A DNA stretch of 64,000 bases, taken from assembly GCF_000266905.1 (NCBI RefSeq), contig NC_018027.1, forward strand, positions 3,162,001-3,226,000, given 5' to 3'. The notes under the pieces are model-generated. The model was given only the letters and a program-made list of their open reading frames with translations, had not been told where the DNA came from and searched no databases. The position numbers and the translations under genes are program-made. Below, piece by piece: positions 4,476 to 51,617 of the stretch; position 1 is the stretch's first letter, and every line of letters begins with the position of its first letter. The DNA is from Mycolicibacterium chubuense NBB4 (GTDB taxonomy: Bacteria > Actinomycetota > Actinomycetes > Mycobacteriales > Mycobacteriaceae).

Positions 4476-5411
4476 ATGTTGATCAGACGTGTTGCGCGCC
4501 CCATGCTGTCTGCGGTCTTCATCTCGCGTGGAATCGATGCCTTGCGGAGCCCCAAACCCGCGGCTGACGCCACCCGCCAGACGCTGGAGGGCCTGAGCAA
4601 GCTGCCCGACCCGGTCGGCACCAACGTCCCGTCGAACGCCGAGACCGTGGCCCGGGTGAACGCCGCCGTGCAGATCGGCGGCGGGCTGCTATTGGCGACG
4701 GGCAAGCTGCCCCGGGTCGCCTCGGCCGCCCTGGCGATCAGTGTCGTGCCGCCCCTCGGCGGGCATGCGTTCTGGAACGAGAGCGACCCGCAGCGCAAAG
4801 CCGACGAACGTCGCGCCTTCGTCACCGACGTCAGCCTGATCGGCGGGCTGATCATCGCCGCGGTCGACACCGAGGGCAGGCCCTCACTCGGCTGGCGCGG
4901 CCGTCGCGCTGCCCGCAAGGTGTCCGAGGCGGTGTCGTCGGCACTCCCGGCCGGTGCCGCCGCGGGCGGCTCGCTGACCGACAGCGAGTTGGCGGAGAAG
5001 GTCGGCCACGGCCTGCACGTCGGCGCCGAGCGCGGCCGCGAACTGGCCCACCTCGCGCGCGAGCGCGGCGGTGAGTGGGCCGAGGTCGCCCGCGAACGCG
5101 GCGGCGAATGGGCCGAGGTCGCCCGCGAGCGCGGCGGTGAGTTGGCCGAGGTGGCGCGCGAACGCGGCGGCGAGCTCGCCGAACTCGCGCGAGACCGTGG
5201 CGGGGAGCTGGCGGTGACTGCGCGCCATCGCGGTTACGAACTGGCCGATCGGGCCCGCGACCGCGCCCCGGACCTGGCCGACGTCGCACGCGAGCGCGGC
5301 ACCGAGTGGGCCGAGGTGGCCCGCGAGCGGGCCGAGCTGGCCCGCGACCGTGCCGCGGATCTGGCCGACACCGCCGGCACCGAGGTCAAGAAGCGCCGTC
5401 GCAAGCGCTGA
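4476..5411 (+). CDS. DoxX-like membrane protein with 11-residue-repeat tail
   Basis: A 311-residue protein in two parts. Residues 1-150 look like the DoxX family of small membrane proteins: an N-terminal ISRGIDALRSP segment, a hydrophobic GGGLLLATGKLPRVASAALA stretch and the GHAFWNESDPQ motif. Residues from about 180 to 303 are tandem 11-residue repeats of the form A-E-V-A-R-E-R-G-G-E-W/L, very rich in Arg, Glu and Asp. The C-terminus is strongly basic (KKRRRKR). The ATG at 4476 is chosen because the DoxX homology begins there. The repeat tail probably forms a long amphipathic helix. Function unknown. Confidence 0.75.
   Translation: MLIRRVARPMLSAVFISRGIDALRSPKPAADATRQTLEGLSKLPDPVGTNVPSNAETVARVNAAVQIGGGLLLATGKLPRVASAALAISVVPPLGGHAFWNESDPQRKADERRAFVTDVSLIGGLIIAAVDTEGRPSLGWRGRRAARKVSEAVSSALPAGAAAGGSLTDSELAEKVGHGLHVGAERGRELAHLARERGGEWAEVARERGGEWAEVARERGGELAEVARERGGELAELARDRGGELAVTARHRGYELADRARDRAPDLADVARERGTEWAEVARERAELARDRAADLADTAGTEVKKRRRKR
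5051..5384 (+). repeat. 33-bp tandem coding repeat (11-residue unit)
   Basis: About nine to ten imperfect, in-frame 33-bp units inside the DoxX-like gene. The core unit encodes ARERGGEWAEV; later units degenerate (ARDRGGELAVT, ARHRGYELADR, ARDRAPDLADV) and one unit is shortened near the end. Variation is mostly conservative (E/D, R/H, W/L), so the periodicity appears to be kept by selection on the protein rather than being a recent slippage product. Confidence 0.85.
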
Positions 5412-43570: not shown

Positions 43571-46411
43571 CTACCCGGCATCAACTGCTACGACGCCGCG
43601 CCGAACGTCGTTGATGGCGCGTTTCGCGGTTGTCCGCAGCGCCGGTGACGGTGCGGCGTTGCGGACCTGATCGGCCAAGTCCAGCACCTGGCGGCACCAT
43701 CTGACGAAATCGCCCGCGGACATCGTCGATCCGTTGCCCGCGGTGTCGGAAGCCGCCAGCGCCGACGCCAGATCGCCGGTACTGGCCCACCGGTGGATCG
43801 CCGCGACGAACCCGTCGTCGGGTTCCCGACTCTGCGTCAGGCGGTGTCTCTGCTCGTCGGCGCGCAACTCGGTCCACAGTCGTCGGGTCTGATTGAGCGC
43901 ACGGCGCAGCCGGCCCGTGGGGATGTCGGCGCCGTCGGAGCCGCCGTGCCCGTCGCGGCGCGATTCGTAGAGCACCGCCGACAGCGCAGCGGCCAGCTCG
44001 GCCGCGTCCAGGTTCTCCCACACGCCGGTGCGCAGGCATTCGGCGACCAGCAGGTCGCTCTCGCTGTAGATGCGGGCGAGCAGCCTGCCGTCGTCGGTCA
44101 CCGTCAGCGTGCCCTCGCCGGCGACTCCGTCGACGCGGTTGGTCCCGGCGACTCCGTCGACGCGGTTGGTCTCGCCGACTCCGTCGACGGTGATGAACCC
44201 GCGCTCCCTCAGCAGCACCACGATCCTGTCGAACGTCCGCGCCAGCGAGTTCGTCGCCGCCGCGATCTTGCCGCGCAGCTGGTCGTTGTCGCGTTCGATC
44301 CGCAGATACCGCTCGGCGAGGCGGACCTTGTCCTCCCGGTCCGGCAGCTGGTGAGCGGCGTGGCGGCGCATCCGCTCGCGCAGGGCCGCGAGCTCGGGAT
44401 CGATGTCGGGATCGAGCGCCTGCCCGCTCCTGCGGCCCCGCGCGGACGGCACCTCGAGCTTCTCGGCGGCCGAGCGCAGCGCCGACGCCAGATCGCGCCG
44501 GGCCCGCGGATTGCGGTGTTCCACCCGTTTGGGCAGCGTCATCTTGCCCATCGGCGGTGCCGAGCCCGAATAGTCCGCCGACGAGATCCGGCCCGCCCAA
44601 CGGTGTTCGGACAGCACCAGCGGCCGGGGGTCGTCGTCGTCGTGTGCCGGCTCGAGCACCACGGCCAACCCGCCGCGACGGCCGTGGGTGATCGTGATGA
44701 TGTCCCCGCGACGCAGCGCGGTGAGCGCGTCGTTCGCGGCCTGACGGCGCTGCAGGCGCGACGCGCGCGACTGAGCCCGTTCCCGCTCGGAGATCTTGGC
44801 TCGCAGCCGCGTGTAGTCCAGGATCGCGGCGTCCCGGCCGCCCAACTCGTCGGCCAGCTCACCGAGCAGACGCTCTCCGCGCTCGACGGCGCGCACCAGA
44901 CCGACGACCGATCGGTCGGCCTGATATTGCGCGAACGAGCGCTCGAGCAGCCGGCGGGCCTGCTCGGGGCCCATCTGGTGCACCAGATTGATGGTCATGT
45001 TGTAAGTCGGGGCGAACGAACTGCGCAGCGGGAACGTCCGCGTCGACGCCAGCCCGGCGACCTCGGCGGGGTCGGTGGTGCTGTCGTGCGGAGTCCACAG
45101 CACCACCGCGTGGCCCTCGACGTCGATGCCGCGCCGCCCCGCCCGGCCCGTCAGCTGGGTGTACTCCCCCGGCGTCAGCGGCAGGTGCTGCTCGCCGTTG
45201 AACTTGACCAGGCGCTCGAGCACCACCGTGCGGGCGGGCATGTTGATACCCAGAGCCAGTGTCTCCGTGGCGAAGACGGCCTTCACCAGACCTGCGGTAA
45301 AGAGCTCCTCCACGGTGTGGCGGAAGGTCGGCAACATACCCGCGTGGTGAGCGGCCAGGCCGCGCAGCAGTCCTTCGCGCCACTGATGGAAGTCGAGCAC
45401 GACGAGATCCGCGTCGTTGAGGTCGGCGGTCCGGCGATCGACGATCTCGGCGATGCGGGCGCGTTCCTCGTCGGTGGTCAACCGCAGCGATGACCGCAGG
45501 CACTGCTTGACCGCCGCGTCGCAACCCGCGCGGGAGAAGATGAACGTGATCGCCGGTAGCAGGTCGCCCTGCTGCAGGACGCTGATCACGTCGGCGCGGC
45601 TGGGCGTGCGGAACAGGCTGGGGCGGTTGGTCCTGCCGCGACCGCGCGGTTGCCAGTCGGCGAGCCGGTCGGCCTCGCGCCGGTGGGCGATGTGGCGCAG
45701 CAGCTCGGGGTCGACGAGAAGGTCCCGGCCGCCTTTGCGCGGGCCGGAAGCGCGGTAGTCGAACAGATCCATCAGCCGCTTGCCGACCATGACGTGCTGC
45801 CACAGCGGCACCGGGCGGTGCTCGTCGACGACGACGGTGGTGTCGCCGCGGACGGTCTGGATCCAGCCGCCGAACTCCTCGGCGTTGCTCACCGTCGCCG
45901 ACAGGCTGACCAGCCGTACGTCGTCGGGCAGGTGCAGGATCACCTCCTCCCACACCGCGCCGCGCATGCGGTCGGCCAGGAAGTGCACCTCGTCCATGAC
46001 CACATACGAAAGCCCTTGCAGCGCACGCGAGTCGGCGTAGAGCATGTTGCGCAGGACCTCGGTGGTCATCACCACGACGTCGGCGTCGCCGTTGATGGCC
46101 TGATCGCCGGTGAGCAGCCCGATGCGCTTCGGCCCGTAGCGTCCGACCAGGTCATTGTGCTTCTGATTGCTCAGCGCCTTGATCGGCGTGGTGTAGAAGC
46201 ACTTGCGGCCCGCGGCGAGCGCCAGGTGCACAGCGAACTCGCCGACGACGGTCTTGCCCGCACCGGTCGGGGCGCACACGAGCACCCCGTGGCCGCGGGC
46301 CAGTGCCTCGCAGGCGCGCCGCTGGAAGTCGTCGAGGGCGAAGGACAGCAGATCAGCGAACGCGACGACGTCGTCGGTCGGGCTCACCGGCTCATCAGGT
46401 TGCGTCGTCAT
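43571..46411 (-). CDS. helY: DEAD/DEAH-box RNA helicase HelY (Ski2-like)
   Basis: A 946-residue superfamily 2 helicase of the Ski2/Mtr4 type. Motif I APTGAGKT is at 47-54, motif II DEVH at 140-143, and VSLSATVSN and the motif [14 protein letters not shown] are present. A long C-terminal region (DSHCT-like) follows. It is longer than M. tuberculosis HelY (about 906 residues), partly because of a 9-residue repeat around residues 740-765. Its start overlaps the tatC end by 17 bp. Confidence 0.93.
44123..44190 (-). repeat. 27-bp in-frame tandem repeat inside helY
   Basis: Two full 27-bp copies (44123-44149, 44150-44176) and a 14-bp partial copy (44177-44190) encode [13 protein letters not shown] 9-residue units. 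Copies are almost identical at DNA level, which points to recent slippage in a surface loop. Confidence 0.85.
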
Positions 46412-47717: not shown

Positions 47718-48704
47718 CTACCCGCCTTGGGGCTGCGAACCGACCCCGTAGGCGTCCAGCGCCGCCGCCGCGGCCTCGCGGACGCGGGCGGCGAGAGGGG
47801 CCGGTTCGAGCACCCGCACCGCGGCGCCGAAACCCAGCACGAAGCGCGACATCCAGGCGTCCGAGGCGTAAGTCATGGTCGCCTCGCAGGACCCGTCGGG
47901 GTACTCGCGGACCACCCGCAGCGGGTAGTAGTCGAACATCCAGGACGCCGAGCGGTCGATGCGCAGCGTCGCAGTCGGCAAGGACGGGTCGGCGGTGTCC
48001 GGGTCGAACAGCGACGTGTCCGGGCCGGCCTGCACCGCCGGGGGCGGCGGCACCGACGGTTCGTCGAGCACCCTCGCGTCGACGATCCGGTCGAAGCGGA
48101 AGAGCCGCACCGCCTCGGCCGATCTGCACCACGCCTCCAGGTAGCTGTGGTCACCGACGAGCACGACGCGAATGGGGTCGACCACACGACTGGACAACAC
48201 GTCGTGCGACGCCGAGTAGTACTCGATCGCCAGTGCCTTGTCGGCGCGCACCGCGGTCCGCACCGCGGCAGCCGCCTCGCTCTCCATCGGGGCGGGCTCG
48301 TCGACGGCGGCACCCTCGATGTGGTGACCGGCCCGTCCCGCGGCCGACTCGATCTTGGCGATCGCGCTGCGCGCCGCCTCCGGGTCGACCATCCCCGGCA
48401 CGTCCACGAGCGCACGCAGCGCCACCAGTACGCCGGTGGCCTCCGGTGAGGTCAGCCGCAGCGGGTGATCGATGCCGGCGGTGAACGTGACTTCGATGGT
48501 GTCGCCGGAGAATTCGAAGTCGATCAGGTCCCCGGGCCCGTAGCCGGGCAGCCCGCACATCCACAACTGGTTGAGGTCGTCGCGCAGCTGCTTGACGCTG
48601 ACGCCGAGATCCGAGGCCGCCTCGGCATACGTGATCCGGGGGTTGGCCTGGAAATACGGCACCATGTTCAGCAGCCGCACCAGCCGCGTACTCACTGCTG
48701 TCAT
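47718..48704 (-). CDS. pafC: WYL-domain regulator PafC
   Basis: A 328-residue transcriptional regulator with an N-terminal winged helix (RITYAEAASDLGVSVKQLRDDL) and a WYL domain (about residues 150-230, with SYLEAWCRSAEAVRLFRFDRI). Together with PafB it forms the PafBC activator of the LexA-independent DNA-damage response in mycobacteria. The ATG at 48704 overlaps the last stop of the 35-bp repeat array that separates it from pafB, so it can be translated by coupling through that array. Confidence 0.92.
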   Translation of the reverse strand: MTAVSTRLVRLLNMVPYFQANPRITYAEAASDLGVSVKQLRDDLNQLWMCGLPGYGPGDLIDFEFSGDTIEVTFTAGIDHPLRLTSPEATGVLVALRALVDVPGMVDPEAARSAIAKIESAAGRAGHHIEGAAVDEPAPMESEAAAAVRTAVRADKALAIEYYSASHDVLSSRVVDPIRVVLVGDHSYLEAWCRSAEAVRLFRFDRIVDARVLDEPSVPPPPAVQAGPDTSLFDPDTADPSLPTATLRIDRSASWMFDYYPLRVVREYPDGSCEATMTYASDAWMSRFVLGFGAAVRVLEPAPLAARVREAAAAALDAYGVGSQPQGG

Positions 48705-48814
48705 GCGCGATCCGCCTCCGCTCCTCGCTCGCAAGTCATGCGCGATCCGCCTCCGCTCCTCGCTCGCAAGTCATGCGCGATCCGCCTCCGCTCCTCGCTC
48801 GCAAGTCATGCGCG
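48701..48814 (-). repeat. Three 35-bp tandem repeats at the pafB/pafC junction, each a coupled minicistron
   Basis: Identical copies occupy 48701-48735, 48736-48770 and 48771-48805, with a 9-bp partial copy after. Reading leftward, each copy supplies a TGA overlapping an ATG (ATGA), so three 12-residue frames (MTCERGAEADRA) run 48809-48771, 48774-48736 and 48739-48701, each ending on the next start. The last stop overlaps the pafC ATG. GAGGAGCGGAGG in each unit can serve as a ribosome site. The array therefore preserves translational coupling from pafB to pafC. Confidence 0.9.
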
Positions 48815-49804
48815 CACACCCTCCTCCGCCTGCGCCCGCAGCCGCGCGATCACGTCGGCGCGCAACGACGCCGGCTCGAGGGCGATGGCGTCGGCGCCGT
48901 AGCTGGCGATCTCGCGCGCGATGCGGTCGAACATGCCGACGTCCAGCGTGATCTCCTCGCCCGGCCGGCCACCGATCGTCTTCGGGCCCACGACGGTGCC
49001 GCGGCGGCGCAGCGCGGTCGCGCGACCGTCGGCCACCCACACCCGGGCCTGCCCCGCGTCGGGCCAGTCACCGACCACGCGGGCCACGATCTCCCGCAGA
49101 TCGACGCCCTCGGGCCGGTGCACCGTCCCCGGCTCACCGAGGAGTGTCACGTCGGGCCCGATCCGGGAGAGCCGGAAGGTGCGCACCGCGTCGCGGTCGC
49201 GGTCATGGCCCACCAGATACCAGCGGCCGCGATCGGTGACCACACCCCAGGGCTCCACGGTGCGGGTCGTGTACGGCTCGGTCCGTGACGGCCGGTGCGG
49301 GAACTGCACGGCTTGTCCGGAGTCGATGGCGGACAGCAGGATTCCGAGTACATCCTCCGATCCGCGCAAGCCGGGCAGCGCGGCCGTCGACGTGATCGTC
49401 ACGTCGCCGTCGGGGGCCTCGACGTCGACCCCGGCGGCGCGCAGCTTCAGCAGTGCGCTCTGCGTCGCCGTGATCAGCTCCGGCGACTCCCACAGCTGGG
49501 TGGCCACCGCCACCGCGGCCGCCTCGTCGGCCGTCAGCTCCACCGCGGGCAGCGCGTAGGCCTCACGGTTGATGCGGTAACCCTCGGTCGGGTCGGTCTG
49601 CGACACGCGGCCGGTCTCGAGGGGGATGCCGAGATCGCGCAGTTCGTTCTTGTCGCGCTCGAACATCCGGGAGAACGCCTCGTCGCTGGCCTCCTCGGAG
49701 TAGCCGTAGACCGTCTCGCGGATCCGGTCGGCCGTGATGAACGTCCGCGTCGACAACAACGCGATGACAAGGTTCATCAGCCGTTCGACTTTCGAGATCC
49801 CCAC
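48806..49804 (-). CDS. pafB: WYL-domain regulator PafB
   Basis: A 332-residue partner of PafC. It has an N-terminal HTH (VERLMNLVIALLSTRTFITA, then FSRMFERDKNELRDLGIPLE) and a WYL domain (WYLVGHDRDRDAVRTFRLSRI) plus a C-terminal extension. PafBC activates repair genes after replication stress; single-stranded DNA is the reported signal. GTG start, 70 bp downstream of pafA. The C-terminal codons run into the repeat array, where the stop overlaps the first minicistron. Confidence 0.92.
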   Translation of the reverse strand: MGISKVERLMNLVIALLSTRTFITADRIRETVYGYSEEASDEAFSRMFERDKNELRDLGIPLETGRVSQTDPTEGYRINREAYALPAVELTADEAAAVAVATQLWESPELITATQSALLKLRAAGVDVEAPDGDVTITSTAALPGLRGSEDVLGILLSAIDSGQAVQFPHRPSRTEPYTTRTVEPWGVVTDRGRWYLVGHDRDRDAVRTFRLSRIGPDVTLLGEPGTVHRPEGVDLREIVARVVGDWPDAGQARVWVADGRATALRRRGTVVGPKTIGGRPGEEITLDVGMFDRIAREIASYGADAIALEPASLRADVIARLRAQAEEGVRA

Positions 49805-49874: not shown

Positions 49875-51233
49875 CTACATGCTGGCGATGAGCCGCTTCA
49901 CCCGCTCGTCGACGGAGCGGAACGGGTCCTTACACAGCACCGTGCGCTGAGCCTGGTCGTTGAGCTTGAGGTGGACCCAGTCGACGGTGAAGTCGCGTCC
50001 GGCTTCCTGGGCGGCGCTGATGAACTCGCCGCGCAGCTTGGCGCGAGTGGTCTGCGGTGGCGTGTTGACCGCCGCCTCGATCTCCTCGTCGGTGGTGATC
50101 CGCGCCGCCAGACCCTTGCGCTGCAGCAGGTCGAACACGCCGCGACCGCGCTTGATGTCGTGGTAGGCGAGGTCGAGCTGGCTGATCTTGGGGTCGGACA
50201 GCTCCATGTTGTAGCGGTCCTGGTAGCGCTGGAACAGCTTGCGCTTGATCACCCAGTCGATCTCGGTGTCCACCTTGGCGAAGTCCTGGCTTTCGACCGC
50301 GTCGAGCTGGCGGCCCCACAGGTCGACGACCGCGGAGATCTGCGAGCTCGGTTCGCGGGTCTGCAGATACTCCACCGCGCGGGCGTAGTACTCGCGCTGG
50401 ATGTCCAGCGCGCTGGCCTGCCGGCCGCCGGCCAGGCGGACCGGCCGCCGGCCGGTGAGGTCATGGCTGACCTCGCGGATCGCGCGGATCGGGTTGTCCA
50501 GCGAGAAATCGCGGAAGGCGACCCCCGCCTCGATCATCTCGAGCACCAGCGACGCCGACCCGACCTTGAGCATCGTGGTCGACTCGCTCATGTTGGAGTC
50601 GCCGACGATGACGTGCAGCCTGCGGTACTTCTCGGCGTCGGCGTGCGGCTCGTCGCGGGTGTTGATGATCGGACGCGAGCGGGTGGTCGCGCTGGAGACG
50701 CCCTCCCAGATGTGCTCGGCCCGCTGGGACAGGCAGAAGGTCGCGGCCTTCGGGGTCTGCAGCACTTTGCCTGCACCACAGATGAGCTGGCGGGTCACCA
50801 GGAACGGCAACAGCACGTCGGAGATGCGGGAGAACTCCCCGGCGCGCACGATCAGATAGTTCTCGTGGCAGCCGTAGGAGTTTCCGGCGGAGTCGGTGTT
50901 GTTCTTGAACAGATAGATGTCGCCGCCGATGCCTTCGTCGGCGAGGCGCTGCTCGGCGTCGATAAGCAGGTCCTCGAGAACGCGCTCGCCTGCGCGATCA
51001 TGGGTGACGAGCTGGGTGAGATTGTCGCATTCGGCGGTCGCGTACTCGGGGTGGCTGCCCACATCGAGATAGAGGCGCGCGCCGTTGCGGAGAAAGACGT
51101 TGCTGCTGCGTCCCCACGACACGACCCGCCGGAAGAGGTAGCGGGCGACCTCGTCCGGGCTCAGCCGACGATGGCCGTGGAACGTGCAGGTGACACCGAA
51201 TTCGGTCTCGATGCCCATGATTCGTCGCTGCAC
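49875..51233 (-). CDS. pafA: Pup-protein ligase PafA
   Basis: A 452-residue carboxylate-amine ligase that attaches the prokaryotic ubiquitin-like protein Pup to lysines of proteasome substrates. GIETEFG at residues 7-13 begins the glutamine-synthetase-like nucleotide site; [13 protein letters not shown] carries the conserved Asp that acts in catalysis; [20 protein letters not shown] is near-invariant. The GTG start at 51233 gives the canonical N-terminus. Pup, Dop and the proteasome core genes are not in the window. Confidence 0.96.
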
Positions 51234-51338
51234 CTCACCGAGACTACTTGCTGACTGGCGCAGAAGGGGGTGCAGACACCCGAATGGGGCCTGTGGATAA
51301 CCCGGGTGAGCGTTGCGCAGGATCTGCCAGCATGAGGC

Positions 51339-51617
51339 ATGGGGGAAATCGCACGTGTGGATGGGGAGAGGGTGCGTGCCGCGGCCGACGGTGTCGACGC
51401 GGCCGCCGACGGCGTCGCGGGCATCCGATCTGAACACCTGGCGCCCGACGAGCTGTGCGGCTCGCAGGTCGGCGCCGCCGCGTCGCACGAGCCGATGGCG
51501 GAACGTCTGAACGAGGTCGTGACGAGACTGCGGGCGTGGGCTCGGGCGGCGCGCGGCGCGGCTGACGCATTCGAGCGTGCCGAGGTCGCCAACGGGCAAC
51601 GGATCGCGCCCCGGTGA
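51339..51617 (+). CDS. EspC-like type VII secretion-associated small protein
   Basis: A 92-residue Ala-rich helical protein resembling the EspC (T7SS_ESX_EspC/DUF2580) family. [21 protein letters not shown] first helix, a central turn and a second helix ([22 protein letters not shown]) fit the helix-turn-helix hairpin of ESX substrates or chaperones. It overlaps the next gene by 4 bp (GTGA), so both proteins are made together. Role inferred from fold and coupling only. Confidence 0.62.

Follow-up and report, generated by a model that had tools for sequence, protein, structure and literature searches.

The junction of pafB and pafC lies on the minus strand of the analysed window (the whole 64,000-nucleotide stretch of Mycolicibacterium chubuense NBB4 DNA) and contains three identical 35-bp units. 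The upstream gene pafB (48806-49804, minus strand; 332 aa from the GTG start given in the ORF list) was named from the earlier note and from its position beside PafC orthologues; its product terminates in LRAQAEEGVRA, and the TGA at the gene's end at 48806 is located inside the first ATGA of the array. The downstream gene pafC (47718-48704, minus strand) encodes 328 aa from an ATG start, and 80 orthologues were found. TRF analysis identified a perfect tandem array with a period of 35 bp at 48700-48814 on the minus strand (3.3 copies, 100% matches, score 230), which bears out the earlier observation of a 35-bp unit tripled without change. Translation of the array gives three ORFs of 12 codons, minicistron 1 (48771-48809), minicistron 2 (48736-48774) and minicistron 3 (48701-48739), all on the minus strand and all reading MTCERGAEADRA followed by a stop. 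The order on the minus strand is pafB, minicistrons 1, 2 and 3, pafC, and all four junctions are 4-nt ATGA overlaps, the TGA of minicistron 3 overlapping the pafC ATG; the chain of three ATGA-coupled 12-residue minicistrons described in the earlier note is therefore present in the sequence. An SD-like GGAGG, read from the sequence, is located in the last unit at 48715-48719 (minus strand), 10 nt before the pafC ATG, and the other two units contain the motif as well, at the same 10-nt distance from the ATG that follows. The SD duplex energy of the GGAGG of the unit was -9.5 kcal/mol, calculated with an anti-SD string. Upstream of pafB, an ORF at 49875-51599 (minus strand), pafA by position, has 574 aa counted from a TTG, and its true start is probably internal.

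The genome was searched with the first 25 bases of the unit, allowing up to three mismatches. This search returned three matches, all within the pafB-pafC array, and none with the reversed-pattern controls; the array is not a chance repeat. A looser comparison revealed one further single diverged unit, with a ATGACTTATC head, at another gene junction of the same genome, so that the element occupies only two loci there and multi-copy dispersal within this genome is weak. The second copy is located at L002:1501-1571 (G000:C3:529385-529455), where the junction genes look like mnhE and mnhF, and the tail of the upstream protein, GKADPA, resembles the end of the unit. Within the genus, 51 of 198 genomes contained a core pattern when at most two mismatches were tolerated, and 106 of 396 contained a pattern with free positions when at most one was tolerated, with a maximum of 13 matches in one genome (G323) and no reversed-pattern control match in either search. 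A family-wide draw showed the element in 7/15 genomes of the genus and in 0/186 genomes of 30 other genera. The element is thus a dispersed repeat with a near-constant 25-bp core. The exact pattern had no match in viral contigs, and a search with the array at E 0.01 gave none in collections of phages and plasmids; these searches lend no support to a spread through phages or plasmids. No description of such a 35-bp repeat class appeared in the titles and abstract openings of papers among the literature matches listed.

In order to define the anatomy of the element, a sample of 140 distinct arrays was taken from the listed part of the pattern matches. Some genomes entered this sample twice with differing names (L021 and L167 are apparently one genome), and it still includes near-duplicates such as L042 and L099. 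NTGA was present at both ends of a 35-bp register in 117/140 arrays, 10/140 arrays fit a 32-bp register, and 13/140 fail both rules at one or both ends. With a minimum ORF length of 60 codons, the first NTGA contains the end of an upstream ORF in 99 of the 117 arrays (18/117 are without one), and the last NTGA is the start of a downstream ORF in every one of them. The 117 arrays span 38 downstream gene families, and the geometry of ATGA-coupled minicistrons recurs where the element occurs. The search of this genome and of related genomes that the earlier note had recommended for the 35-mer upholds the repeat as real and recurrent, but not as restricted to pafBC. Most arrays (101/140) hold a single copy, with two copies in 17, three in 16, four in 5 and six in 1. 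The spacings within the 140 arrays were 35 bp in 64 cases, 32 bp in three, and 55 bp and 36 bp in one each; the 55-bp spacing is made up of 35 bp and a remnant of 20 bp, the latter still encoding MTGQRVA and a stop that leads into GTGA. The length variants comprise six 32-bp sites, one 20-bp site, one 56-bp locus, one 36-bp spacing and one 34-bp unit. By a count made by eye, 8/10 of these variants keep a length of 2 mod 3 (binomial 0.0034), the rule being violated by the 36-bp spacing and the 34-bp unit, in one array each.

Reading frames were then compared over 175 units. No unit has an in-frame stop (0/175), frame 1 has stops in all units (beyond the leading TGA, a TAG in 70), and frame 2 has stops in 8/175; the absence of in-frame stops is a modest argument for an open frame, because frame 2 also has few. 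A stop-substitution test carried no information on this point, as only 2/75 possible substitutions would create a stop. The variable codons are more informative. At the NAG codons 4 and 8, T is present in 0/175 units each and in 0/38 families, whereas at the GNA codon 6 it is present in 71/175 units and 22/38 families, and the lack of T at codons 4 and 8 is a stronger argument for an open frame than the bare stop count, although founder sequences could account for part of it. Variation in the core affects codons 4, 6 and 8 at their first or second base, and third codon positions are nearly fixed, so the open frame is kept, and the peptide itself is probably not conserved.

The ends of the arrays were examined for a signature of insertion in the 117 arrays of the 35-bp register, the test omitting 23/140 arrays (10 in the 32-bp register and 13 others). 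In 98/117 arrays (0.84), the base after NTGA was the same in the last unit as in the downstream gene, compared to 0.33 in shuffles, and 0/5000 shuffles were as high as observed. Due to the duplicates and near-duplicates in the sample, the match was also determined for single arrays drawn from each gene family (n=38), and three such draws gave a fifth-base match of 0.71, 0.82 and 0.76 against a null of 0.36. At pafBC, the fifth base matched in 16/16 cases, 8 with C and 8 with G. The match was 0.45 at position 6 (0.30 in the null) and 0.38 at position 7 (0.29 in the null). When stratified by the fifth base, the excess at position 6 persisted (53 observed, 39.3 expected, 3/5000 shuffles as high), with weaker excesses at positions 7-8, and a strict 4-bp duplication does not explain the excess at positions 6-8. 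A target duplication of 9-10 bp, suggested by loci L113 and L100, was rejected as the per-position match drops steeply past position 5. The first unit starts with A in 81 and G in 33 arrays (n=114), with no T, and the downstream gene starts with A in 112 and G in 5 (n=117). At pafC in particular, the start codon is ATG in 12/12 carriers versus 39/63 bare junctions (the other 24 have GTG; p 0.007), in a hand classification from which 2 MIRU-like and 4 unclear rows were left out. Within one clade, L042 is filled (GTGAC...ATGAC) and L060 is bare (GTGAC). Judged from these sequences, the signature fits insertion into TGAN with a 4-bp duplication and an element-borne A.

The history of the junction was followed in the 80 named PafC orthologues, of which 11 have 35-type units (one of them 56-bp), 2 have MIRU-like units and 67 have none; hand classification gave 11 carriers, 2 MIRU-like, 63 bare and 4 unclear rows (L045, L070, L071 and L081). 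The bare junction, found in 63/80 orthologues, is usually a -4 overlap, in agreement with the earlier statement that a single ATGA overlap is the normal state. Between species, the copy number at pafBC is 1, 2, 3 or 4 for the 35-bp units, or two 56-bp units. Presence of the element changed at least 10 times on one 81-tip maximum-likelihood PafC tree in which some forks are weak. The PafB tail ends within one base of GATCGCGC, the end of the element, at 11/63 bare junctions, tip counts that are not independent because several rows are closely related, and a GATCGCGC-like tail is present at 1/1649 other NTGA sites in the same loci. Bare junctions with a PafB C-terminus ending in ADRA include L034, L032 and L011, among others. 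These ADRA tails are apparently deletion scars of lost units that have altered the protein tail, and comparison of sisters such as L034 and L042 suggests a deletion between a GCGCAGGCG-like stretch of pafB and the GCGNAGGCG of the element.

We consider it probable (approximately 0.78) that the array is a short, MIRU-like mycobacterial insertion of about 35 bp that has been amplified locally in tandem, and that its mini-ORF relays ribosomes from pafB to pafC. We infer that the element would insert, in a transposition-like manner, at a stop/start overlap (NTGA) and duplicate TGAN; as it carries its own final A, the downstream gene would then begin with ATG. Because the unit is 2 mod 3 in length and its core is free of stops, each copy would form a short ORF that extends from the upstream stop to the next start, and with these ORFs chained, a ribosome leaving pafB could terminate and reinitiate on three minicistrons before reaching pafC. 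Growth of the array would proceed by slippage amplification. The main consequence would be an insertion that is nearly harmless to coupled expression, and the most economical view is that of a nearly neutral insertion, which would survive because coupling is not broken. PafB and PafC form a heterodimer in equal amounts and are encoded on a common transcript in M. smegmatis (PMC5656591), and a naturally fused PafB-PafC form is described in Arthrobacter (PMC8223512), so co-translation of the two proteins makes sense. Reinitiation at overlapping genes is established elsewhere, with variable importance of the SD motif (PMC6728339). As in the termination-reinitiation at ATGA overlaps described there, the pafB-pafC junction has an overlapping stop and start and an SD-like motif within the upstream frame; the difference is that an inserted repeat here multiplies the overlap, giving three intermediate 12-codon frames. 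An element-borne SD as an expression booster was rejected, as the SD duplex energy before pafC did not differ between carriers (median -7.7 kcal/mol) and bare junctions (median -6.9 kcal/mol; p 0.53).

Alternative readings differ in how they account for the same observations. The earlier note treated the array as a pafBC device for tuning or phase variation, in which copy number sets the PafB:PafC ratio and hence the DNA-damage response. Copy number at pafBC does differ between species, as described above, and in M. tuberculosis, 12/41 MIRU loci reportedly differ in copy number from isolate to isolate (PMC2734929). However, the sampled junctions that hold the element belong to 38 downstream gene families, it comes and goes at pafBC, 67/80 pafBC orthologues have no unit, and the SD energy in carriers is no stronger; a device dedicated to pafBC is improbable, and an effect of copy number on the level of PafC is possible as a secondary, unproven consequence. 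A further reading is that the repeats act at the DNA or RNA level, as a promoter, an RNA structure or a site of mRNA processing, with open frames that are incidental. The report that a MIRU-bearing region drives senX3-independent expression of regX3 (PMC4213456) is in its favour, as is the variation in codons 4, 6 and 8 described above, by which the peptide itself is not conserved. A simple scan, in which sigma-70-like promoters were the only promoter type covered, found no promoter or terminator, and the RNA fold z-score (-0.47) indicated no unusual folding, so that a promoter, terminator or folded-RNA element is not supported; the location at stop/start overlaps and the lack of T in the NAG codons argue for translation, and action at the DNA or RNA level has little chance of being the explanation. 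Perfect short tandem repeats may be assembled wrongly, but many other assemblies contain similar arrays with their own sequence variants, and the searches with the unit and core patterns gave no control matches, so an assembly artefact or a chance repeat is extremely unlikely.

Descent from a true MIRU is a more serious competitor, in which the element would be a diverged MIRU subfamily and not a separate element of like habits. Two of the PafC loci, L083 (Mycobacterium colombiense GF28) and L085 (Mycobacterium sp. E2479), have a 50- or 77-bp MIRU-like unit at pafB-pafC, so two kinds of element are found at one site. The MIRU-type core was derived from L083 and its kin, and we take it to be the MIRU of M. 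tuberculosis. A pattern made from L083 matched 111/198 genus genomes, with one control match (G171) and no match in the genome that holds the 35-bp array. Copies of this type in 30 fetched loci obey the same site rule, with NTGA at both ends in 29/43 and a shared fifth base in 27/29; 24/29 are 50, 53 or 77 bp long, and the rest are 51, 52 or 62 bp. Supply et al. are said to have reported MIRU insertion at DTGA sites in 1997 (Mol Microbiol 26:991). The 35-bp element likewise uses a DTGA-type site, as the first-unit NTGA has A or G and both sides of the unit have TGAN in common. According to PMC12548453, MIRUs are short, apparently mobile repeats that insert at start codons with -4 coupling, which probably limits harm to the target gene; in M. 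tuberculosis H37Rv they occupy 41 loci, with unit lengths of 46-101 bp (PMC3914561). Like MIRUs, the element is dispersed and often tandem, and carries a short ORF with -4 coupling to the next gene (for MIRUs, PMC12548453); the ends of its short ORF overlap the neighbouring stop and start, both in the window and in the sample (99/117 upstream and 117/117 downstream). The element differs in its length of 35 bp (with 32-, 20- and 56-bp variants) from the 46-101 bp of MIRUs (PMC3914561), and it is mostly found in other genomes of the genus than the MIRU-type repeat.

Local alignment of the two cores was no better than that of dinucleotide shuffles (668/2000 and 349/2000 shuffles were as good), and homology to MIRU by sequence is therefore not supported. 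The 35-bp element was present in 2/68 genomes with at least five MIRU-type matches and in 49/130 other genomes, a split that was counted by eye at a cut of five matches chosen by the analyst and for which p is 1e-8 with phylogeny not controlled. The architecture of the element matches that of MIRUs, and its length and sequence do not; with cores that do not align above chance and that seldom reside in one genome, it is MIRU-like in its working and is not classed as a MIRU, and common descent is rather unlikely. A statement that confines the MIRUs of the senX3-regX3 region to M. leprae and the M. tuberculosis complex (PMC4213456) cannot be true of the whole repeat type, because the MIRU-type pattern is present in 111/198 genus genomes. 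Tentatively, the locally amplified insertion favoured above could represent a second minimal mobile element of mycobacteria, made up of only about 31 bp of its own and a TGAN duplication of 4 bp, with no sequence relationship to MIRU, and converged on the stop/start overlap. Such an element may survive by serving as a relay for ribosomes, bringing along both a reading frame of its own and the A of the following ATG, and its tandem growth would give chains of translated minicistrons, the number of which could shift subunit ratios, as at pafBC.

With these observations, the idea of MIRUs extends to an element that is far shorter, differs in sequence and resides in other members of the genus, and the many natural insertions give a readable signature, the TGAN duplication with an element-borne A. 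Because the state of pafBC has changed repeatedly, the junction provides natural pairs of carrier and bare states in which the cost of extra terminate-and-reinitiate steps could be determined. If the relay is real, ATGA overlaps would be safe landing sites for tiny mobile DNA, and this would give a testable rule for the spread of elements without breakage of operons. Another system of direct repeats between co-directional genes is ETR-F / VNTR3239 upstream of fpg in the M. tuberculosis complex, which is likewise absent from the same junction in other species (PMC2734929). Those repeats differ in being longer and complex and in beginning 40 bp past the upstream stop codon, and the passages on them describe no ATGA chain (PMC2734929). 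Two further repeats were seen in the window: a 27-bp coding repeat at 44118-44189, in 2.7 copies, which gives repeated residues inside a large helicase-like ORF, and a GC-rich 33/66-bp repeat array at 5023-5342, with about 10 copies of the 33-bp unit and 72% matches.
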